Below are positions 1 to 11,228 of a stretch of 64,000 nucleotides of DNA, piece after piece. The stretch comes from Bacteroidota bacterium (GTDB lineage Bacteria; Bacteroidota; Bacteroidia; 2-12-FULL-35-15): positions 62,001 to 126,000 of the forward strand of contig JAOQAG010000005.1 of the NCBI GenBank assembly GCA_025963715.1, in the 5' to 3' direction. The stretch's first letter is position 1, and each line of letters starts with the position of its first letter. The notes below the pieces were generated by a model. That model was given only the letters and a program-made list of their open reading frames with translations, made no database searches and was not told the DNA's origin. Made by a program: the position numbers and the translations under genes.

Positions 1-43
1 ATTTACAGTTCATCGCAGAAAAATTAATTTTTAAAAATTGTAT

Positions 44-643
44 ATGAAAAAAATCATTCCTGTTCTGTCATTCATCTTCTTGTTTTCGGTTGCCCCGAAA
101 GCACAAAATGCCGAAGCTGCCTTTACAAAAAGTTATGCATTTGAATACGATACGCAGTATGCGAAAGCGATCACAGCATTACTGGAAGCGGGAGAAGATA
201 CCTACGAAATTAATTTGCGCCTCGGCTGGCTGTATTACAGCAGCAAGGATTATGTAAAATCCGAAACATATTATAAAAAAGCCATCAGTATGGAATCCGG
301 TTCCATTGAAGCGCGCTTTGGACTTGCATTGCCGCTTTCGGCGCAGGGAAACTGGAATGATGTATTGGCAACCTACCTGGAGATCCTGAAGCAGGATCCC
401 AATAATTCAATTGCCAATTACCGCATTGCCAGCATTTATTACAACCGAAAGGATTATGCAAATGCCAGCACCTCCATTTTAAAAGTAATTAAAATGTATC
501 CTTTTGATTACGACAGTAATTTATTGTACGGGAAAATACTGATGGCGCAGAATAAAAATGCGGATGCAAAAAAATTCCTGATCAAAGCGGTGGAATACAA
601 TCCGCAATCCGACGACGCAAAAGCCTTACTTAAGAAGCTGTAA
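44..643 (+). CDS. Exported TPR-repeat protein
   Basis: Exported tetratricopeptide-repeat protein of 199 residues; its partner is unknown. An MKK start is followed by a hydrophobic core and a likely signal-peptidase site near residue 21-25 (AQNAEA). The rest is about four TPR units, with the typical aromatic/small pattern in LGWLYYSSKDYVKSETYY (about residues 60-77). The ATG at 44 is preferred to an in-frame TTG at 38 because MKK plus hydrophobic core is a canonical signal peptide. It ends 6 nt before a LytTR regulator, so the two are probably cotranscribed. The same order, TPR protein then LytTR, recurs at 9235-11228. The family is clear; the role is inferred scaffolding or sensing in the periplasm. 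Confidence 0.85.
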   Translation: MKKIIPVLSFIFLFSVAPKAQNAEAAFTKSYAFEYDTQYAKAITALLEAGEDTYEINLRLGWLYYSSKDYVKSETYYKKAISMESGSIEARFGLALPLSAQGNWNDVLATYLEILKQDPNNSIANYRIASIYYNRKDYANASTSILKVIKMYPFDYDSNLLYGKILMAQNKNADAKKFLIKAVEYNPQSDDAKALLKKL

Positions 644-1905: not shown

Positions 1906-4101
1906 ATGAGCGCAAAATTTAAGATCCATACAAAATCACTCATCATTATCAGCTCCTTGCTGAGCATTGGCTTGGTGCTGTTTATAGCCATGAATGCCAA
2001 TCGCTACATGGCAAAAATGGCAAGGAATAATGCAGAGCTGTACAATGCATACCGCATCTCCGAGCTCATGAAATCCTTCCGGAGCAGCATTATTACGCTG
2101 GATGCAAAACAACAGGGCTACCAGGTAACCGGTGATGGTAAATTTTTGGAAGCATATAAAGCCAAAGAAACCGAAACAAAAACCTACTTAAAAAGTATGG
2201 AAAAATATTTTTCGGGAACGGCGGAAGAAGAAACATTTTATGCGCTGAAAGATTATACCTACCGGAAATTACTGGCAGCAAAAGATCTGTCGGCCATGCA
2301 AACCACCAGCGGCAGCGATGCGGACGGTTCTCAATCTATGGACCTGATCAACAAAACGATCGACGATATTAACATCAGCCTGAATGCCACCACGCAGCAA
2401 CTCATTGCCAACGGCGTTGAATATACGGATGCTTCCCAACGCTGGAATATTCTCGAAATTATTTTCGCGGTGGTAACGGCGCTTACCGCACTCATCCTGC
2501 TGTTCCGCGATTTTAATTTAAGGATCAAACTGGAAGAAGAATTACGCGTGGCAAAAAAACAAGCAGATGATAACGCCGCGCTGAAAGAAACATTTATGGC
2601 CAACATGAGCCACGAGATCCGCACACCGATGAATGCCATCATTGGCTTTTCGGACCTGTTGCGCAAAACGGAGCTGGGCGATACACAAAAAGAATATTTA
2701 TCGGCGATCAAAAATAGCGGCGCCAATTTGTTGAACATCATCAACGATATTCTTGATTTTTCAAAAATTGGCGCAGGAAAATTAAAGATCGAAAAAATTG
2801 CATTCGACATTCATGGTTTGCTTTCCTCTTTAAAATTAATGTTCTCCGAAAAAGCATCGCGTAAAAAAATCGGTTTTGAGATCATCATTGATAAGAACAT
2901 GCCGCTATTTATTTTCGGCGATCCCACACGGCTTACACAAATACTGGTGAACCTGGTGAACAATGCCATTAAGTTTACCGACAATGGAAAAGTGCAGTTG
3001 AAATGCGAAGTAAAAAGCATTGAGCACGACATTGTGCAGCTGGTATTTAAAATAAAAGATTCCGGCATCGGCATTCCCGCCGATAAACTGTCCGGAATTT
3101 TTGAAAGATTTGAACAGGCGAACACTGAAACCACGCGTAAATACGGCGGTACAGGATTAGGTTTGGCAATTGTGAAAGAGCTGGTTGACATTCAGCATGG
3201 AACCATCGCGGTAAAAAGCGTGGAGAAGGAAGGCTCAGAATTTATTGTAACCATGAGCTACCCGGTTTCTTACGAAGATGTGGATGCCATGGACAGCGCG
3301 AAAGATCTGCACAATTCGTTTACGGTAAATCCTGCCAAACCATTGCGGGTATTGCTTGCAGAAGATAATGTATTGAACCAGCGGCTTGCATCCACCTACC
3401 TCAGCGGTTTTGGATTGCAGGTAGATGTGGCGGAGAACGGAGAGATCGCGCTTGAAAAATTGCAAAATAAAAAATACGATTTGTTATTACTGGATATTCA
3501 AATGCCGGTGCTGGATGGTTACAATACAGCCGAGCGGGTGCGGAAGGTGTTAAGATCGGAGATCCCTATCATTGCCATGACGGCGCACATCATGGTAGAT
3601 GAAAAAGAAAAATGTTTGAGCTACGGGATGAACGATTACATCTCCAAACCTTTTAAAGAAGCGGAATTGTTCCAGGTCATTAAAAAACACATTGCGGAAG
3701 AATACACTACGGCTGTAAAACCAATGGAGGCAGTAATGGAAGGCGGAGAAATGGCGGTGGTAAATGTAAAGGAGTTGTTTGGGATCGCTCGTGGCGACAA
3801 TGAATTTGTGAAAGAAATGATCGGGATTTTCAAAAAACAAAATGCCGAAGATCTGGAAATTTTAAGTGCTGCAATTGCTTCCGCTGATTTTGATACGATC
3901 CGGGTAGTTTCCCACCGGATGCGCACTTCCGTTGGTTTTATGGGAATGAACGTGATGCTGGAACCGCTGGCAAAAATGGAAAAAGAAGCAAAAATAAACC
4001 AGGATCTGCAACAGATCCTCCCTGTTTTTGAATTGATAAAAAGTCAATCCGAAAAAGGACAGGAAGAAATAAACACCATTTTATCTACTCTTGATCTCTA
4101 A
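1906..4101 (+). CDS. CHASE3 hybrid histidine kinase with REC and Hpt domains
   Basis: Membrane-bound hybrid sensor kinase of 731 residues carrying a complete phosphorelay. A membrane helix at about 11-31 is followed by an extracytoplasmic CHASE3-like domain (about 35-175, QQGYQVTGDGKFLEAYKAK) and a second helix near 182-200. HisKA has phospho-acceptor H236 (MSHEIRTPMNA); HATPase follows with N, G1 and G2 boxes (VNNAIKFTD, DSGIGIP, GGTGLGLAI). A receiver carries D530 (LLLLDIQMP), and a C-terminal Hpt domain carries H670 (SHRMRTSVG). The stop codon is 5 nt upstream of the PqqD-like gene, so the kinase heads the biosynthetic operon. The terminal Hpt implies phosphotransfer to a separate regulator; the two LytTR proteins are candidates by position only. 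Confidence 0.93.
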   Translation: MSAKFKIHTKSLIIISSLLSIGLVLFIAMNANRYMAKMARNNAELYNAYRISELMKSFRSSIITLDAKQQGYQVTGDGKFLEAYKAKETETKTYLKSMEKYFSGTAEEETFYALKDYTYRKLLAAKDLSAMQTTSGSDADGSQSMDLINKTIDDINISLNATTQQLIANGVEYTDASQRWNILEIIFAVVTALTALILLFRDFNLRIKLEEELRVAKKQADDNAALKETFMANMSHEIRTPMNAIIGFSDLLRKTELGDTQKEYLSAIKNSGANLLNIINDILDFSKIGAGKLKIEKIAFDIHGLLSSLKLMFSEKASRKKIGFEIIIDKNMPLFIFGDPTRLTQILVNLVNNAIKFTDNGKVQLKCEVKSIEHDIVQLVFKIKDSGIGIPADKLSGIFERFEQANTETTRKYGGTGLGLAIVKELVDIQHGTIAVKSVEKEGSEFIVTMSYPVSYEDVDAMDSAKDLHNSFTVNPAKPLRVLLAEDNVLNQRLASTYLSGFGLQVDVAENGEIALEKLQNKKYDLLLLDIQMPVLDGYNTAERVRKVLRSEIPIIAMTAHIMVDEKEKCLSYGMNDYISKPFKEAELFQVIKKHIAEEYTTAVKPMEAVMEGGEMAVVNVKELFGIARGDNEFVKEMIGIFKKQNAEDLEILSAAIASADFDTIRVVSHRMRTSVGFMGMNVMLEPLAKMEKEAKINQDLQQILPVFELIKSQSEKGQEEINTILSTLDL

Positions 4102-4105
4102 AATT

Positions 4106-4366
4106 ATGAGCATTAAAAAAAACATCGCGATCAGCGAATCCGGATTTATTTTTGATCCTTCCACCGGTAATTCATTTACCACCAATCCCATTGGCCTGGA
4201 GATCCTGCAGCTCATCAAAGAAGGCAGGGAGCAGAATGAAATTAAAAAACACATCACCGCCGGTTATCACGTGGATGATAATACTTTTGAAAAAGATTTT
4301 TATGATTTTATTTCGACGTTGCAGCAACTTAAACTGACTGTGGAAAATGAAAAAAAGAACGATTAA
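4106..4366 (+). CDS. PqqD-like peptide-binding (RRE-type) protein
   Basis: Small protein of 86 residues matching the PqqD fold: an F-x-x-N/P-x-x-G strand-turn region (GFIFDPSTGNSFTTNPIG), then I-L-x-L-I-x-E-G, a short helix region and a final hydrophobic helix (FISTLQQLKLTV). PqqD proteins bind precursor peptides for modifying enzymes, usually a radical SAM enzyme. None is present here. The ATG at 4106 is chosen over an in-frame TTG at 4091 inside the kinase gene. Its last 20 nt overlap the start of the ATP-grasp gene, which indicates translational coupling. I infer a peptide or amino-acid carrier/recognition subunit for the ligase; no precursor peptide gene was found nearby. Confidence 0.8.
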   Translation: MSIKKNIAISESGFIFDPSTGNSFTTNPIGLEILQLIKEGREQNEIKKHITAGYHVDDNTFEKDFYDFISTLQQLKLTVENEKKND

Positions 4367-5396
4367 CATCGGCGTTACCGGCTTAAACGCGATTGATAGT
4401 CCTGGCCCGGGCGTGCCCGTGATCAGGGCATTGCGGGAGAGTACCGCATTTGATGTGCGCATCATCGGGCTTTCCTACGAAGCAATGGAGCCGGGCATTT
4501 ATATGCACGATTTAGTGGATAAAACGTACCAGTTGCCGCTTCCGTCTGCCGGGCAGCAGGCACTTTTAGCACGCCTGGAATACATTCACGCACAGGAAAA
4601 ACTGGATGTGATCATCCCGAATTTTGATGCTGAATTATTCAATTTTATACAACTTGCAAATGTGCTGAAAAGCAATTACAACATCAATGTATTTGTACCC
4701 ACGCTGGAGCAATTTGAAGCGCGGCAAAAAGTAAACCTGTATGAATACGGTAAAAAACACGGCATTGATGTTCCCAAAAGCAAAACCATTTTTAGCGTAA
4801 AAGATGTTTATTCGCTGGAACAGGAATTTGAATTTCCATACGTGATAAAAGGGAAATTTTACGATGCAATCATTGTTTACAGCACCGATCAGGCTGTTGC
4901 GGCTTTTCACAGGATCGCTTCCAAATGGGGATTGCCGATCATCATCCAGGAATTTGTAGAAGGACAGGAAGTAAATGTAACCGCTCTCGGCGATGGACAG
5001 GGCAATCTGATCGGTGCCGTTCCCATGCGTAAACAATACATTACGGATAAAGGTAAAGCCTGGTCGGGCATTTCCATAGATGACGATAAAATGCTGCAAA
5101 TGGCTAAAAAGCTTATTCAGTCAACAAAATGGAGGGGCGGACTGGAACTGGAAATTGTACGAACGGATGATGAAAAATATTATCTGCTCGAGATCAATCC
5201 GCGCTTTCCGGCCTGGGTATACCTTGCGGTGGGCTGCGGACAAAATCATCCGGAAGCACTGGTACGCATGGCAATGGGTGAAACCGTTGCACCGTTTGAA
5301 AAATACGATGTAGGTAAAATGTTTGTGCGTTATTCGTACGACATGATCGTGAATCTCAATGAATTTGAAAAAATTTCTATTAACGGAGAATTATAA
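4347..5396 (+). CDS. ATP-grasp ligase (carbamoyl-phosphate synthase/PylC-like)
   Basis: ATP-grasp enzyme of 349 residues, predicted to activate a carboxylate as acyl-phosphate and join it to an amine. The N-terminal preATP-grasp part (about 1-115) is Rossmann-like (GVTGLNAIDSPGPGVPVIRA). The ATP-grasp domain has a lysine-bearing strand (FPYVIKGKF), an adenine-linker region IIIQEFVEGQEVNV, and metal-binding EINPRFPAW with E282, N284 and R286. It resembles the carbamoyl-phosphate synthase large-chain group rather than RimK-type graspetide ligases. It overlaps the PqqD-like gene by 20 nt, and its TAA lies 1 nt before the decarboxylase ATG. Substrates are unknown; the neighbours suggest an amino-acid or peptide product. 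Confidence 0.88.
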   Translation: MKKRTINIGVTGLNAIDSPGPGVPVIRALRESTAFDVRIIGLSYEAMEPGIYMHDLVDKTYQLPLPSAGQQALLARLEYIHAQEKLDVIIPNFDAELFNFIQLANVLKSNYNINVFVPTLEQFEARQKVNLYEYGKKHGIDVPKSKTIFSVKDVYSLEQEFEFPYVIKGKFYDAIIVYSTDQAVAAFHRIASKWGLPIIIQEFVEGQEVNVTALGDGQGNLIGAVPMRKQYITDKGKAWSGISIDDDKMLQMAKKLIQSTKWRGGLELEIVRTDDEKYYLLEINPRFPAWVYLAVGCGQNHPEALVRMAMGETVAPFEKYDVGKMFVRYSYDMIVNLNEFEKISINGEL

Positions 5397-5397
5397 A

Positions 5398-6762
5398 ATG
5401 TACCTGACAAAAAAACAATATGAACGCCCCGTGATCCAGCGTGTAAACGTTGGCCTTATGAATAAATACGGTACCCGTACGGAATATGAACCGGTAACGC
5501 ACATCGATGGAAATGCTGTTGCTGACCTGATCACAGCTTACGGTTCACCGGTATTTGTACTTTCAGAAAAAACGATCCGCGCTACTTTCCGCGATGCCAA
5601 CCGTGCGTTTAAAACACGTTATCCAAAAGTGCAATTTGCCTGGTCGTACAAAACAAATTACATCAGCGCCGTTTGCAATGTGTTTCACCAGGAAGGTTCC
5701 TGGGCCGAGGTAGTTTCGGGTTTCGAATATCAGAAAGCAATTAATAATGGTGTTCCAGGTGCAAACATTATTTTTAACGGCCCTGACAAATCCGAAGCGG
5801 AATTAATTTTTGCCATCAACAACGGTTCGCTCATTCACATTGATCACCTCGATGAATTGTACCTGATCAAAGAAATAGAACCGCAATTACAAAAACGTGC
5901 GCGTGTTGCCATCCGTGTAAACATGGATACAGGCGTGTATCCGGCCTGGGACCGTTTTGGATTTAATTACGAAGGCGGACAGGCGCAGGATGCCATCAAT
6001 AAAATTATGCTCAATACCAACATGGATTTGGTGGGTTTGCATTGCCACATCGGCACGTTCATGCTCACGCCTAGCGCCTATGCAGTGGCGGCAACCAAAA
6101 TGTCGGAGCTGGCATTGAACGTAAAGAAAAAATTCAAAAAAACACTCGAATACATTGATATGGGCGGCGGTTTTGCTTCCCGCAATACGCTCAAAGGTTC
6201 CTACATACAAGGTGCAGATGCAGCGCCTTCATTTGACCAATACGCCGAAGCGATCAGTACGGCCATTTTAAATGCCGGTTTTACCGAAGCGGACCTGCCT
6301 TTGCTGATCCTGGAAACAGGCAGGGCGCTGATCGATGAAGCCGGATTTTTATTAGGATCGGTGATCTCCAACAAACGCCTGGCAGATGGAAGAAGAGCCA
6401 CGATCATGAATTTCGGCGTGAACATTTTATTCACTTCTTTCTGGTACGATCATAAGATCACACCGGCTCAGCCTTTCGGACAGCACAACGAAAGTACAGT
6501 GTTGTATGGCCCGCTGTGTATGAACATTGATGTGATCCGTGAAAATATTTCATTACCACCTTTGAAAAAAAATGACCAGGTGGTAGTGCATACCGTTGGT
6601 GCATATAACATGACACAGTGGATGCAGTTCATCGCTTTACGCCCGGCAGTAGTGCTGATCGATATGAACCAAAAACCGCATGTGATCCGCAACAAAGAAA
6701 CACCTGCCAGCATTCAGAAAGAAGAAGAAATGCCAGCGTATTTAAAAGAGTTTAAAATTTAA
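5398..6762 (+). CDS. Fold-type III PLP decarboxylase, DAP decarboxylase-like
   Basis: PLP enzyme of 454 residues of the alanine-racemase-fold group IV decarboxylases (diaminopimelate, ornithine, arginine, carboxynorspermidine). Visible landmarks are PLP lysine K85 in SYKTN, H217 in HCHIGT, the phosphate-binding GGGFA loop, E306-T-G-R309, and Y in VGAYNMTQW. Where classical DAP decarboxylase has C-E-S-G-D, this protein reads C374-M-N-I-D, so the catalytic Cys is kept but the next residues differ. That argues against ordinary LysA. The ATG at 5398 is taken instead of an upstream TTG, because it follows the ATP-grasp stop by 1 nt. Likely function: decarboxylation, or less likely racemisation, of the ligase substrate or product. 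Confidence 0.87.
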   Translation: MYLTKKQYERPVIQRVNVGLMNKYGTRTEYEPVTHIDGNAVADLITAYGSPVFVLSEKTIRATFRDANRAFKTRYPKVQFAWSYKTNYISAVCNVFHQEGSWAEVVSGFEYQKAINNGVPGANIIFNGPDKSEAELIFAINNGSLIHIDHLDELYLIKEIEPQLQKRARVAIRVNMDTGVYPAWDRFGFNYEGGQAQDAINKIMLNTNMDLVGLHCHIGTFMLTPSAYAVAATKMSELALNVKKKFKKTLEYIDMGGGFASRNTLKGSYIQGADAAPSFDQYAEAISTAILNAGFTEADLPLLILETGRALIDEAGFLLGSVISNKRLADGRRATIMNFGVNILFTSFWYDHKITPAQPFGQHNESTVLYGPLCMNIDVIRENISLPPLKKNDQVVVHTVGAYNMTQWMQFIALRPAVVLIDMNQKPHVIRNKETPASIQKEEEMPAYLKEFKI

Positions 6763-6896
6763 AATGAATTTTACATTGCGAGGATATTGTTGAGCGTAGT
6801 TTCCCGCTACGCCCTGCTTAACAAGGTATCCCGCCTGTTTATGATTTGTTGAAACAATTTATAATGATCGGCCAGAAGCCAGTTAAAATGGACGTA
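6763..6896. other. Spacer after the decarboxylase
   Basis: First part of the 316-bp gap between the two halves of the cluster. Only a nine-codon frame starting at 6763 is present. No precursor-peptide-like ORF or promoter box was seen. Confidence 0.4.
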
Positions 6897-6967
6897 TGTA
6901 GGCGCTAGGCTCTGCCTAGTGACAAACATTATAATATAATGTCACTAGGCAGAGCCTAGCGCCTACA
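6897..6967. repeat. Perfect 28-bp inverted repeat (hairpin)
   Basis: Arms at 6897-6924 and 6940-6967 are exact reverse complements of 28 bp around a 15-nt AT-rich loop. Each arm contains GGCGCTAGGCTCTGCC. There is no T-tract directly after the stem, so it is not a standard intrinsic terminator, although such a stem could block read-through or protect an RNA end. It lies between the decarboxylase and the transporter-peptidase gene. It may also be a minimal non-autonomous mobile element. Confidence 0.85.
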
Positions 6968-6974
6968 CACAGCA

Positions 6975-7037
6975 AACTTTGAACTTTGAACTTTAAACTT
7001 TGAACTTTAAACTTTGAACTTTAAACTTTGAACTTTT
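6975..7037. repeat. Heptanucleotide tandem repeat, nine units
   Basis: Nine head-to-tail 7-mers, AACTTTG alternating with AACTTTA and ending AACTTTT. The same phrase recurs as short runs in other gaps: 25908-25966, 48473-48489, 62317-62350 (complementary strand) and 63489-63517. No spacer sequences separate units, so it is not CRISPR. Confidence 0.85.
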
Positions 7038-7078
7038 TTATTCATTATTAAAAATATCTAAGTGCCCTTAGTGCCTTA

Positions 7079-9265
7079 GTGGTAAAAAAATGCACATTGA
7101 AAGAATACATTAAACTCCTTAAACAAGGGCTTCCGGCCAGCTACAGCCAGATCTTTTTTTCGGATCAGCGCCTGTTTGCATTCATGTTGCTGCCCGCTTC
7201 TTTTATTGATCCGGCAACAGGGTTAAGCGGATTGATCTGCGTGTTCATGTCGCTCACTGCTGCGCATGTGCTGGGGTTAAATCCCATTTCTGCACGACAG
7301 GGATATTATTCCTTTAATTCCTTATTAACAGGATTGGTATTGGGAACCACGTTTCAGTTCAATGCAGCTTTACTCATTTATTTATTGATCGGCGGATTAC
7401 TGTCCCTGCTGTTTACCGTTTGGTGCTCTTCGTTTTCCATCCGTTATAAAGTCCCGTTTTTAAGTATCCCTTTTATTATTACCATCTGGTTGTTATTCCT
7501 GAGCATGCGTGCTGCTCATACCGGTATTGTTGGGGTAGGAGCAAGCCCGTTTCAGTGGCCGAAAGAAATTATTTCTTCGTTGGCAATACAATGCAATTAC
7601 AATGGAAGCAATTGCCTGCTGCATTTCATGGCCATTTATTTTAAAGCAATGGCCGCTATCTTTTTTCAGCACAGCGTGGTTGCCGGAATTGTTATTTCAA
7701 TCGGTTTACTGATCTATTCCCGCATCTCATTTACCTTGTCGTTGTTGGGTTTTGCTGCGGGCTTCCTGTTTTTTAAAATAATATACCCGCATGCACCGGA
7801 GCCGGATTTTAACTGGCTGTCGTTTAATTTTATTTTGTCCGCTATTGCAATCGGTTATTTCATGATCCCTTCCGGCGCTTCTTATTTATTGGTTTTTATA
7901 GCCACGCTGTTAACGCAATTATTTATTTCCGCGCTGGGCGTACTGGCTCAATCGTTTTTCCTTCCACTGTATTCATTGCCGTTCAGCCTTGTTACCATGC
8001 TGCTTATAGTAGTGCTGAACAACCGTTATACGATCCGTTATCTTCATTTGGTTCAATATCAGCTGCATTCGCCCGAAAAAAATCTGTACATGTTCCGCAG
8101 CGCTTCCGAGCGTTTTAAAAACGATACGTATGTACACATTCATTTACCGTTTTTTGGCGAGTGGTTTATTTCGCAGGGGCATTCGGGAAACATTACGCAC
8201 AAAGATAAATGGCGCTATGCATGGGATTTTGTGGTAACCGGCGGGGATGGAAAAACCATGCGCAATCACGGTTCGCAGCTGGCCGATTATTATTGTTATT
8301 CCCTGCCGGTTACCGCTCCTGCGGATGGACAGGTAATTTTGCTGGAAGATGGAATTGAAGATAATTTAGTGGGAGATGTGAACCTGGAACAGAACTGGGG
8401 AAACACCATCGTGCTCAAACACAGCGAAGGTTTGTACAGTAAGCTCAGCCATATCAAAGCGGGCAGCTTTAAAGTAAAAACCGGCGATTATATTAAAAAA
8501 GGCGATGTGCTTGGATTGTGCGGAAACTCAGGCCGTTCGCCGGAACCACACATTCATTTTCAATTACAGGCCACGCCGTTCATCGGTTCGCATACCTTAA
8601 AATATCCCTTGAGCTATTACATCATCAAAGCGGAAGAAAAATATATTCTCCGTTCATTTGATTATCCGAAAGAAGGCGAAACCATTATCCGTCCTTCACC
8701 TACGGCATTGCTGCAGCAGTCTTTCCATTTTATTCCCGGAATGAAACTGGAGTTTGATGTAAACGACGGTAAAAAAACATATCCCGAACAATGGGAAGTA
8801 TTTACGGACATTTCAAATTTCTCCTATTTGTATTGTCACCGCACGCAATCGCTTGCTTATTTTTCAAACAACGGTACCCTGTTTTATTTTACCAGCTTTA
8901 AAGGCGATGAAAAATCGTTGCTGTATTATTTTTACCTGGCAGCATACAAAGTATTATTAAGTTATTTTCCTGCATTGGAGATCCATGATGAACTGCCGGT
9001 ACAGGACAGCAAAAGCGTATTAAAACCTTTGCAGGATCTCATCGCGCCGTTTCATGTGTTAATGAAAGCATCGTTCCGGTCGGAATATATTTTTGCAGAC
9101 AATGAGCGATTGCCAAAAACGATCAGGATCGCTTCTGCAGTTACAAGCACAGGAATCAGCACAACCAAAAAAACATTTGAGCTGGAGATAGAGAACAATC
9201 AATTAAAATCAATCACGGTCAACAGCGATCAGTTATGTATAAAAGCGGTCAATTCTTCTTTTTAG
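7079..9265 (+). CDS. Urea-transporter-like membrane domain fused to M23 peptidase
   Basis: Fusion protein of up to 728 residues. Residues about 25-330 are hydrophobic with a urea-transporter (UT) pattern (GLSGLICVFMSLTAAHVLGL, and a Y-x-F/Y-N-x-x-L repeat region). Residues about 360-520 resemble LytM/M23 zinc endopeptidases: D383 in YAWDF, SHI, GDVLGLCGNSGRSPEPHIHF with H491 and H493. About 200 uncharacterised residues follow. The start is uncertain: no in-frame ATG exists near the 5' end. GTG 7079 lies inside a dispersed repeat (TTAGTGCCTTAGTGGTAAAA), TTG 7097 is the other option, and ATG 7090 is out of frame. The next gene overlaps by 31 nt. Likely role: small-solute or product transport coupled to cell-wall peptide cleavage. 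Confidence 0.85.
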   Translation: MVKKCTLKEYIKLLKQGLPASYSQIFFSDQRLFAFMLLPASFIDPATGLSGLICVFMSLTAAHVLGLNPISARQGYYSFNSLLTGLVLGTTFQFNAALLIYLLIGGLLSLLFTVWCSSFSIRYKVPFLSIPFIITIWLLFLSMRAAHTGIVGVGASPFQWPKEIISSLAIQCNYNGSNCLLHFMAIYFKAMAAIFFQHSVVAGIVISIGLLIYSRISFTLSLLGFAAGFLFFKIIYPHAPEPDFNWLSFNFILSAIAIGYFMIPSGASYLLVFIATLLTQLFISALGVLAQSFFLPLYSLPFSLVTMLLIVVLNNRYTIRYLHLVQYQLHSPEKNLYMFRSASERFKNDTYVHIHLPFFGEWFISQGHSGNITHKDKWRYAWDFVVTGGDGKTMRNHGSQLADYYCYSLPVTAPADGQVILLEDGIEDNLVGDVNLEQNWGNTIVLKHSEGLYSKLSHIKAGSFKVKTGDYIKKGDVLGLCGNSGRSPEPHIHFQLQATPFIGSHTLKYPLSYYIIKAEEKYILRSFDYPKEGETIIRPSPTALLQQSFHFIPGMKLEFDVNDGKKTYPEQWEVFTDISNFSYLYCHRTQSLAYFSNNGTLFYFTSFKGDEKSLLYYFYLAAYKVLLSYFPALEIHDELPVQDSKSVLKPLQDLIAPFHVLMKASFRSEYIFADNERLPKTIRIASAVTSTGISTTKKTFELEIENNQLKSITVNSDQLCIKAVNSSF

Positions 9266-10500
9266 TACTCCTGCTTTTACTCGCCGGTAAAAACGTATCC
9301 GCACAGGATCCGCTTACTGCCGGTGCCGCAGAAGAAGTATCCTACCGGTTGTATCAGCAGGGAAGCTGGGATAGTCTTGCCGCTTACTGCGATAAAGCCA
9401 TTGCAGCCGGTTACGATTATTATTACATGCGGATGCGTGCCGGAATTGCCTGTTATAAAAAAACAGATTACCGCAAAGCAATCCTGCATTTTGAAAAAGC
9501 ATTAACGTTTAATGCCAGCGACGACGCGGCAAATGAATATTTATATTTCTGTTATACGTATTCCGGCGAATACGATCAGGCGCGCTGGCTGGCAAAAGAT
9601 TTTGATTCGACATTCAGTGCCGCAGCCGGAATAAAAAAAGTGCCTGTATCGATGTTGCTGCTCGAAGGCGGTACCAAACTCAGCAGCAGTGATTTGTTTC
9701 AACCGGTAGTGTATGCACATGCAGCGCTTTCGCATTATGTGAACAGCCGCGTTTCGCTGTTTCATGCATTTACGTATTACGGACAAAAGGAATCGCGGTA
9801 CACGATCAACCAATACCAGTATTACCTGGGAGCAAGCATCCCACTACAAAAACGCTGGTCGGTATCTGCCGGAGCACAGGTAATGTACAACCGTAATATT
9901 TACCGCGATAGCGTGGATGTACTCATGCAGCAAGGATTTATGGGTGGAGGAGGAGGGCCGCCACCACCGCCGCCATCCGGGCAAACGACAAAAGTGCTGG
10001 AATCGGTAACAAAAAATGAATGGAATTACATTGCTGCATTTACAATAAAAAAATCAGTTACACATTTTAGTGCAGCATTAGGTGCTACTTACTGGTACAG
10101 GGATACCGCCAGCTTTTATCAATTAAATGGAAATGTAACGTACTATCCGTTCGCAAATAATTTGTTAAGTATTTCGGCTGACGTGTATCTGCACACGATC
10201 AACAATTTTAAAAATAATTATGTTTCGGTAGCGCCAGCAGTTACGCTCAATTTTAAAAAATGGAACCTTACTGCAGGTTATCTCAACAATGCAGGCGGCA
10301 ATGCCATTGAGCACACCGGCTACGTTGTAAATAATTCGGAAGACCTGAGCCGCGACCGGTATACCTTATCGCTTGCATACCGGATCAAAAAGCTTAGCGT
10401 GTACTGCACCTATAGTTATGAAACCAAAGAAATGGCAGAAAAAAATCTGCATTATAATTACAACACGTTTATAGCCGGAATTTGTTTTACACCTTATTAA
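9235..10500 (+). CDS. TPR plus beta-barrel outer membrane protein (YaiO-like)
   Basis: Outer membrane protein of 421 residues. A signal peptide (1-24, ending VSAQ) is followed by one or two TPR units (about 30-120: YYMRMRAGIACYKKTDYRKA). A C-terminal half (about 150-421) of alternating hydrophobic/aromatic strands, separated by charged loops, fits a YaiO-like barrel. A low-complexity loop GGGGGPPPPPP lies near residue 240-252. The start overlaps the transporter-peptidase gene by 31 nt, and the stop lies 23 nt before a LytTR regulator, so the three form one unit. It may be the outer membrane exit, entry or sensor component of the cluster; the barrel call rests on pattern only. Confidence 0.75.
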   Translation: MYKSGQFFFLVLLLLLAGKNVSAQDPLTAGAAEEVSYRLYQQGSWDSLAAYCDKAIAAGYDYYYMRMRAGIACYKKTDYRKAILHFEKALTFNASDDAANEYLYFCYTYSGEYDQARWLAKDFDSTFSAAAGIKKVPVSMLLLEGGTKLSSSDLFQPVVYAHAALSHYVNSRVSLFHAFTYYGQKESRYTINQYQYYLGASIPLQKRWSVSAGAQVMYNRNIYRDSVDVLMQQGFMGGGGGPPPPPPSGQTTKVLESVTKNEWNYIAAFTIKKSVTHFSAALGATYWYRDTASFYQLNGNVTYYPFANNLLSISADVYLHTINNFKNNYVSVAPAVTLNFKKWNLTAGYLNNAGGNAIEHTGYVVNNSEDLSRDRYTLSLAYRIKKLSVYCTYSYETKEMAEKNLHYNYNTFIAGICFTPY

Positions 10501-10523: not shown

Positions 10524-11228
10524 ATGAAAAGAAAAATAAACGCAATTGCAATTGATGATGAGCCAATGGCTACACGCATCATCGAAAATTTTTGCAGCGA
10601 CATAGAGTTTATTCAGCTCGAAAAAAGTTTCAATGATCCGAAAGCCGGATTAAAATACCTGAAAAAATATCCGGTGGATCTTGTATTCCTGGATATTGAT
10701 ATGCCCGGGATGAGCGGATTAGAGCTGTGCAAACAAATCAGGCAGGAAGCCATGATCGTGTTTATTACCAGCCATCGCGACCTTGCTGTGGAAGGTTTTA
10801 ACCTGGATGCCGTGGATTATGTCACGAAGCCATTCCAGTTTGAACGTTTTGAAAAAGCAGCAAAAAAAGCCTACGATTTTTTAAGTTTCCGAACAGAGCG
10901 CCCCAACGCCGAAAGTGAAAAATACATGTACCTGCGCGCCGATTATAAATTGCATAAAATTACCATCAGCGAAATTGTGTACGTGGAAGGACTGGATGAT
11001 TATGTGAAAGTGCACATCGAAAATCAAAAAACACTGGTGGTGCGCATTACCATGAAAAAATTATTGGAAAAACTTCCACCCAACGAATTTATCCGCGTCC
11101 ATAAATCATTCATCATTGCGGTAAACCGCATCAACTGGATCAAAACAGGTAGTGTTTCGGTAGGCGGGCAGGAGCTTCCGTTAGGGCAAAATTATGCAAA
11201 AGCAGTAACGGAGGTTTTTCACCACTAA
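10524..11228 (+). CDS. LytTR-family response regulator (second copy)
   Basis: Response regulator of 234 residues. The receiver (1-120) has DDE at 11-13, phospho-acceptor D57 (FLDIDMPGMSG) and K in YVTKPFQFERF. The LytTR domain (about 135-234) has IVYVEGLDDYVKVH and FIRVHKSFIIAVNRI. It is a clear paralogue of the regulator at 650-1339 and lies 23 nt downstream of the beta-barrel gene. The last codons and stop (CACCACTAA) are formed by a dispersed repeat unit, so the C-terminal two residues are probably repeat-derived. The two LytTR genes bracket the whole cluster, which suggests local regulation. Confidence 0.93.
   Translation: MKRKINAIAIDDEPMATRIIENFCSDIEFIQLEKSFNDPKAGLKYLKKYPVDLVFLDIDMPGMSGLELCKQIRQEAMIVFITSHRDLAVEGFNLDAVDYVTKPFQFERFEKAAKKAYDFLSFRTERPNAESEKYMYLRADYKLHKITISEIVYVEGLDDYVKVHIENQKTLVVRITMKKLLEKLPPNEFIRVHKSFIIAVNRINWIKTGSVSVGGQELPLGQNYAKAVTEVFHH

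Follow-up and report, generated by a model that had tools for sequence, protein, structure and literature searches.

What is a urea transporter (UT)-like channel doing in the same polypeptide as an M23 metallopeptidase, and what might the two handle together? The question is raised by a single reading frame at positions 7079-9265 (forward strand) of the window, a 64,000-nucleotide stretch of DNA from a Bacteroidota bacterium. Two textbook families are linked here in a way that we did not find in the open-access literature. The component families are known, yet our searches of that literature found no paper combining urea transporter and M23 peptidase terms, and none that covers any three among PqqD, ATP-grasp, diaminopimelate decarboxylase, and urea transporter; neither the combination nor the operon described below was found in print.

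The linkage suggests a processing-and-transport device for a small amide-like operon product. In our preferred reading, to which we give a probability of about 0.4, the fusion serves a conserved operon for biosynthesis and transport as its membrane component, a peptidase-bearing channel that would process and pass the amide made by that operon.

Is the Fusion Real?

The frame runs stop-free for 728 aa and joins a UT domain, an M23 domain, and a 215-residue C-terminal domain. Translation could begin at GTG 7079 or at the in-frame TTG 7097, and the start codon is not certain. An AlphaFold2 model of the whole protein, built from 43 aligned fusions, has a mean pLDDT of 90.9 and a pTM of 0.84. The UT fold occupies residues 1-312 (7079..8014, forward strand, as are all features below) according to Pfam PF03253 and model comparison. 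A basic linker and helix, residues 313-350 (8015..8128), joins channel to M23 in the alignment and the model, and two of its residues, E333 and R345, are invariant across the aligned fusions. There follow the M23 domain, residues 351-513 (8129..8617), and a beta-rich C-terminal domain delimited in its own model, residues 514-728 (8618..9262).

Both folds named in the preliminary description are borne out. PF03253 matches residues 20-312 (E 9.7e-47; 160 bits vs a cut-off of 25), and the model aligns over residues 5-345 with human, zebrafish, bovine, and Desulfovibrio (dvUT) urea transporters at Z ~37 with an identity of 17-24%. For the peptidase, PF01551 (Peptidase_M23) matches residues 410-497 above its curated cut-off (E 3.7e-15), and residues ~347-514 of the model align at Z ~12-14 with LytM, lysostaphin, LasA, and other M23 domains.

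The same description had listed two findings that would speak against a fusion of this kind: absence of a UT fold (structure comparison found the fold) and two genes joined by an assembly error or frameshift. Within the genus, 19 of 36 genomes have a UT gene and all 19 carry it as a one-frame fusion of 725-766 aa (the sample is identical to the set returned at family and order level). An even draw of 395 genomes across the phylum gave UT matches over the cut-off in 44, and in 33 of these, the window's genome included, the UT shares one frame with M23 (535-769 aa). Stand-alone UT genes, in frames of 280-332 aa, occur in 10 of the 395. A single genome, G040, has the two parts in overlapping frames, with a frame shift at an A-run in the linker that reflects either a sequencing error or a real split. 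This case, one of the 34 fusion genomes in the phylum draw, is what a joining artefact has in its favor; the breadth of one-frame copies (33 of 34 in the phylum, 19 of 19 in the genus) already refutes it, the trees below give one fused group for each half, and we regard the probability of an artefact as negligible.

In the UT tree a single branch (100/100) splits 27 fused rows from 8 stand-alone ones; in the M23 tree, where one stand-alone row (L101) is badly trimmed, a single branch (100/99) splits 18 fused rows from 8 stand-alone relatives. One fused group per half agrees with a single fusion event without proving it, and the UT, M23, and C-terminal domains were probably joined in one event. 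The C-terminal domain is found in 33 of the 395 phylum genomes, only where the fusion occurs; the fusion in genome G290 is without it. Among the best 80 of 564 matches in named records, most are Bacteroidota metagenome bins and some are labelled Ignavibacteria, Chlorobiota, Marinimicrobia, or Rhodothermaceae; two more of these 80, labelled Competibacteraceae and Melainabacteria, may be mis-binned. The fusion is real and is spread across the phylum.

Residue counts in fusions are given for a 47-row set, the window plus 46 of 47 loci, with the split locus L066 excluded; the rows taken were 43 of 47 for A1, 33 for A2, and 45 for A3.

Is the Peptidase Intact?

The zinc motifs of M23 enzymes are H(x)nD and HxH, with an extra His ~30 residues before HxH, as a review of these enzymes gives them (PMC9662197). 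These motifs are present in the fusion sequence as H374-x8-D383, H458, and H491-x-H493, and all five residues (H374, D383, H458, H491, H493) are invariant in 47/47 aligned fusions. H374 (8198..8200) is the predicted first zinc ligand and D383 (8225..8227) another predicted zinc ligand; H458 (8450..8452) is a predicted catalytic His, and H491-x-H493 (8549..8557) would supply a catalytic His and a zinc ligand. Profile alignment places H458 and H491 at the sites that were mutated in two chains, H216A and H247A, of a solved M23 peptidase. The alignments to PDB sequences begin after the first zinc ligand, so the assignment of H374 rests on conservation. Stand-alone M23 relatives have H-x10-D or H-x11-D in 8/8 sequences.

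The preliminary description was right about D383 and the HxH (H491, H493). It had found the first ligand unclear, overlooking it because the motif is H-x8-D, and had suggested that the domain might be a non-catalytic binding module. With the full set invariant in 47/47 that suggestion loses its footing: as far as conservation can tell, the catalytic set is complete and apparently intact. A degenerate M23 domain was also considered and is ruled out by the same five residues.

Does the Channel Still Carry Urea?

We take Q24, T130, E187, and T294 of dvUT to be its urea-contact positions; by alignment they correspond to residues 24, 129, 193, and 299 of the window protein. Here Q24 is kept (codon at 7148..7150), whereas T130 has become S, E187 has become A (A193, codon at 7655..7657), and T294 has become S. 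The fusion belongs to the UT family by fold but departs from it at these urea-contact residues. Neither E nor Q is found at the E187 equivalent in any of the 47 fusions; the T130 equivalent is S in 43 of them, and the T294 equivalent is S, V, or A in 42. In contrast, the stand-alone UTs of the phylum (8 of the 10 served as pore and charge controls, one having a stop and one being without a locus) have Q, T, E or Q, and T at the four positions in 8/8.

Could the protein nevertheless be an ordinary urea channel carrying a passenger domain? The UT fold is complete, the equivalent of dvUT F27 is F in 47/47 fusions (it is L in 8/8 stand-alone UTs), N250 is kept in every fusion, and Q24 is retained in 33 of 47, with L in the 11 clade-B proteins discussed below and in one other. 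These points are outweighed by the loss of the E187 equivalent throughout and the changes at T294, by a score of 117 bits against the TIGR03441 urea transporter equivalog (curated cut-off 274.6), and by the lack of any urease over the cut-off in the 36 genus genomes, and we think a plain urea channel very improbable. Urease over the cut-off was found in 0/59 genomes (36 of them the genus, and some incomplete), and the single sub-threshold match came from outside the genus; urea import feeding a urease was rejected on this ground. The altered contact residues, together with the lack of a urease match in the genus, make it likely that the pore's substrate differs from urea.

What Accompanies the Fusion Gene?

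Three genes lie upstream of the fusion in the window, and all three are conserved there. They encode a PqqD-family protein (4091..4366; PF05402, E 3e-9), an ATP-grasp ligase (4347..5396; PF02655/PF15632), and an alanine-racemase-fold PLP decarboxylase (5359..6762) whose nearest solved relative is N-citrylornithine decarboxylase. Directly downstream is a TPR protein (9235..10500) with a C-terminal part of unproven fold, in which an outer-membrane barrel is suspected by eye; family searches with it gave weak TPR-type matches and no known family. A second TPR protein, with a leader-like N-terminus, is encoded at 38..643, and its homologue stands downstream of the fusion in most mapped relatives. 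In the window, and in some genus relatives, the operon is flanked by histidine kinase and LytTR genes.

The preliminary description had suggested looking for the same fusion in other genomes and for PqqD and ATP-grasp genes beside it. Both searches succeeded: alongside the one-frame copies in 33 of 395 phylum genomes, a survey of 112 loci (the 18 genus loci L020-L037 excluded) offered 85 with at least 3.8 kb upstream, of which 84 have the ATP-grasp and decarboxylase genes upstream of the fusion and 83 have PqqD too. L121 has 9.9 kb upstream and none of the three genes; L099 has ATP-grasp and decarboxylase without PqqD. With 3 kb downstream, 85 of 88 loci have a homologue of the TPR protein at 38..643 and 63 of 88 one of the longer TPR protein. 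These locus counts include one contig twice (L068, L172) and at least four copies of genus contigs (L109, L110, L114, L160).

In the phylum draw the decarboxylase (E <= 1e-75) and the fusion mark the very same 34 of 395 genomes, G040 among them; the decarboxylase matches are all at ~1e-138 or better, and 0/10 genomes with a stand-alone UT have one. The linkage of the fusion to the PqqD, ATP-grasp, and decarboxylase genes is near-obligatory, and because fusion and decarboxylase coincide in 34/34 genomes the operon is well defined as a pathway that can be tested.

Two other explanations of the neighborhood were tried. No small conserved ORF that might encode a RiPP precursor peptide was seen among the 8 largest groups in 1.3 kb upstream of PqqD and in the gap before the fusion, a test that is weak for short or fast-changing peptides, which could escape it. 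Six proteins checked as a possible defence system gave no PADLOC match.

Does the Partnership Hold in Clade B?

Within the genus, the 19 fusion genomes divide into 8 of clade A and 11 of clade B. The operon decarboxylase (E <= 1e-60) is present in 7/8 clade-A genomes and 0/28 other genus genomes; in the clade-A genome without a match, G019, the contig starts with the fusion gene. Clade-B loci show none of the operon's decarboxylase, ATP-grasp, and PqqD genes. What they have is an OKR_DC_1 decarboxylase (E <= 1e-60; 915 aa in L028), found in 11/11 clade-B genomes and 0/25 others of the genus, and of a different fold from the operon's PLP decarboxylase. In 9 of the 11 loci of clade B its gene is close to the fusion; of the other two, L033 stops 140 bases upstream of the fusion, and the ~2 kb of L037 contains no OKR_DC_1 gene. 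Between OKR_DC_1 and the fusion lies a gene of ~150 aa, taken for VOC-like, that no Pfam or NCBIfam model matched. In six loci (L027, L028, L029, L031, L035, L036) a second ATP-grasp gene stands beside OKR_DC_1, identified as PRK06524 (over its cut-off in L028). It therefore seems that the fusion is paired with an ATP-grasp enzyme and an amino-acid decarboxylase, of whichever family each may be.

All 11 clade-B proteins share four fixed pore changes (Q24L, L83F, I194T, and L253F). Over 63 conserved UT positions without gap columns (71 with them), clade-B changes are not significantly enriched at the pore (4/12 pore vs 7/51 other positions, p = 0.12), nor are they in a looser count (5/12 vs 10/51, p = 0.11).

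What Might the Operon Make?

Among PDB entries, N-citrylornithine decarboxylase 7kh2 (E 5e-60) comes closest to the operon decarboxylase, followed by diaminopimelate decarboxylases (9e-38) and BtrK (6e-25). Of the NCBIfam models, FslC fits best, yet below its cut-off, and the protein is likewise under the TIGR01048 cut-off. The acidic residue beside the catalytic Cys that marks diaminopimelate and basic amino-acid decarboxylases is absent; Met follows the Cys in 106/106 copies (E < 1e-100, duplicates included), as in FigC. In FigC this Met (M355) replaces the Asp that binds the side-chain amine in other members, and the specificity helix is without the Arg of diaminopimelate decarboxylases (PMC7857480). 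By this likeness, the substrate probably is an amino acid whose side chain bears a substituent, and such a substrate would fit an ATP-grasp amide ligase.

On Which Side of the Membrane Is M23?

The two halves of a UT are inverted repeats, so both termini lie on one side of the membrane, as is established for the family. When the loops are taken from the model, the N/C-terminal side has the higher K/R density and net charge in 47/47 fusions (a mean of 9.3 K/R in 75 residues vs 1.7 in 58 on the opposite side), and K/R density is likewise higher there in 8/8 stand-alone UTs. The inner loops alone agree in 42 of 47 fusions, tie in 2, and disagree in 3. Please note that the loops were drawn after the family's charge profile was known, so the charge test is not blind. 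Human UT-B is N-glycosylated at N211 (PMC10541013); going by residue range, we assign this site to the linker that joins the halves, in which case the linker would face outside.

The charge bias and the shared side of the UT termini predict that the M23 and C-terminal domains are cytoplasmic, and we lean toward that placement. The earlier suggestion that the channel is tethered to a wall hydrolase and transports at sites of wall cleavage is accordingly not favored.

Some observations do pull the other way. Wall hydrolysis is the main known activity of M23 enzymes (PMC9662197). Relatives in the M23 subfamily and the neighboring TPR proteins have N-termini that look leader-like by eye, and the C-terminal domain weakly resembles LolA, LolB, and RseB. 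If the UT were inverted, or the C-terminus reached the periplasm, M23 could act there on peptidoglycan near the channel or on an exported product. We consider this unlikely, given the K/R bias in every fusion and every stand-alone control, an inverted-repeat fold that would keep the termini together, and the UT-B glycan as placed in the inter-half linker. If M23 is indeed cytoplasmic, a wall-cutting family has been put to another use.

Modelled alone, the C-terminal domain is beta-rich with a pLDDT of 92.9, but no sequence family was found for it, and the search of PDB sequences returned a single match at E 0.86. Its structural likeness to LolA-like half-barrels is weak (best Foldseek E 2e-3, best Z 9.3): LolA rows have Z ~6-9 and TM ~0.28-0.40, not clear of the usual background, and LolB and RseB are also among the weak matches.

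How Could the Parts Work Together?

In our preferred reading of a peptidase-bearing channel, the ATP-grasp enzyme would attach a group to an amino acid through an amide (or peptide) bond, and the PLP enzyme would decarboxylate this substituted amino acid much as N-citrylornithine decarboxylase does. The C-terminal cup might then capture the product or its precursor, and the M23 site would cut it where the channel opens to the cytoplasm. The small amide or amine so released could pass the altered UT pore and travel onward via the TPR proteins. A fuller statement may be offered, though only tentatively: that this is a peptidase-containing channel, with a cytoplasm-facing M23 and a ligand-binding cup on a UT-fold pore that no longer recognizes urea, serving a PqqD/ATP-grasp/decarboxylase natural product in Bacteroidota and their relatives.

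Several points were counted against the preferred reading. No precursor-peptide gene was found at the loci. Human, bovine, and D. vulgaris UTs have a narrow pore of ~2-3 A (PMC10541013), so a bulky amide may not pass. To these we add the lack of enrichment among clade-B pore changes, the exceptions L121 and G019, the clade-B loci without PqqD, the LolA-type matches, and the mostly wall-hydrolytic record of M23.

UTs are passive, so the direction of transport is not set by sequence, and a sensor or importer should be weighed as well: a small external amide or amine would enter through the pore, to be handled or reported inside by the M23/cup domain. Besides the free direction, the histidine kinase and LytTR genes noted above beside the operon are consistent with such a role. 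Their matches are scattered among the phylum and named loci, however, and the strictest partners of the fusion are biosynthetic enzymes; we find a sensor or importer rather improbable.

How Does the Fusion Compare with Known Systems?

With the UT family (dvUT, UT-A, UT-B; PF03253) the fusion shares the whole fold at Z ~37. It differs in the added C-terminal M23 and cup domains, in the missing E187 equivalent (47/47), and in falling below the TIGR03441 cut-off.

With M23 peptidases of the LytM/lysostaphin type (PF01551) it shares the fold and, by conservation, the two zinc His, the zinc Asp, and the two catalytic His. The family has Hx3D where the fusion has H-x8-D, and the M23 of the fusion is attached to a channel on the predicted cytoplasmic side. 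Close relatives compared with it are the stand-alone M23 proteins L100-L107 of Bacteroidota and haloarchaea, which have the same first-ligand His and a similar LPFxGEW-type start, but which have leader-like or few-segment hydrophobic N-termini (by eye), carry neither a UT nor the C-terminal domain, and form a separate group in the tree.

C39 peptidase exporters are peptidase-containing ABC transporters. The likeness is one of logic only, in that the peptidase of a membrane transporter handles a product made next door; the fusion has another peptidase, a channel replaces the ABC pump, and no precursor peptide was found.

For the biosynthetic genes, the nearest parallels are FigC/FslC and the BtrJ/BtrK pair of butirosin, of which we take BtrJ to be an ATP-grasp enzyme. 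As PMC7857480 describes them, these systems combine a bond-making enzyme with the decarboxylase of a substituted amino acid, and the operon would do the same. Unlike them, it has an ATP-grasp enzyme in place of the NIS synthetase and no identified acyl carrier protein, and it adds the UT::M23 fusion.

Repeats and regulators around the fusion gene

The gap 5′ of the fusion gene (window 7079-9265, forward strand) contains two repeats. The first is a 31-bp palindrome pair (6894-6970), with arms that are 97% complementary. This is a REP-like element dispersed through the genome, as the 22-base core of the palindrome has 58 genomic copies, compared with 0 for a control (both strands searched, ≤2 mismatches). 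The second, immediately 5′ of the gene, is a direct repeat of the AACTTTGAACTTTA type with a 14-base spacing (6975-7044).

In both the window and several relatives from clade A, one of two groups of genus genomes with the fusion, the PqqD, ATP-grasp, and decarboxylase operon is flanked by LytTR response regulators and a hybrid histidine kinase (650-1339, 1906-4101, and 10524-11228 in the window). The presence of these flanking genes suggests that expression of the operon is regulated.

Variant copies and neighborhoods

Not every copy of the fusion appears intact. In G040, a phylum genome consisting of one contig, it is found as two overlapping frames (L094, 7923-10195), with the break at an A-run in the linker; this may represent an error, a pseudogene, or a true split. 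At L122 (9203-11398), the M23 domain holds an in-frame stop, and the copy is otherwise normal. In genome G159, fusion and decarboxylase genes are found near both ends of contig C1 (C1:11-3938 and C1:3731224-3735354): the second fusion copy is cut or broken, and the second decarboxylase has an identical score. The chromosome may be circular, with the two ends of the contig overlapping in the assembly.

The usual partners can also differ. In clade B, the other genus group (L027-L037), an OKR_DC_1 decarboxylase, a different ATP-grasp, and a small gene without a family match lie beside the fusion, standing where the decarboxylase/ATP-grasp/PqqD set would be. At L121, where the fusion is 47% identical to that of the window, PqqD, ATP-grasp, and decarboxylase had no match within 9.9 kb upstream.

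Haloarchaeal relatives

M23 proteins of the same subfamily as the M23 domain of the fusion are encoded on haloarchaeal plasmids (L106, 5815-6678; L107, 5692-6618). Since haloarchaea lack peptidoglycan, these relatives must have a different substrate.
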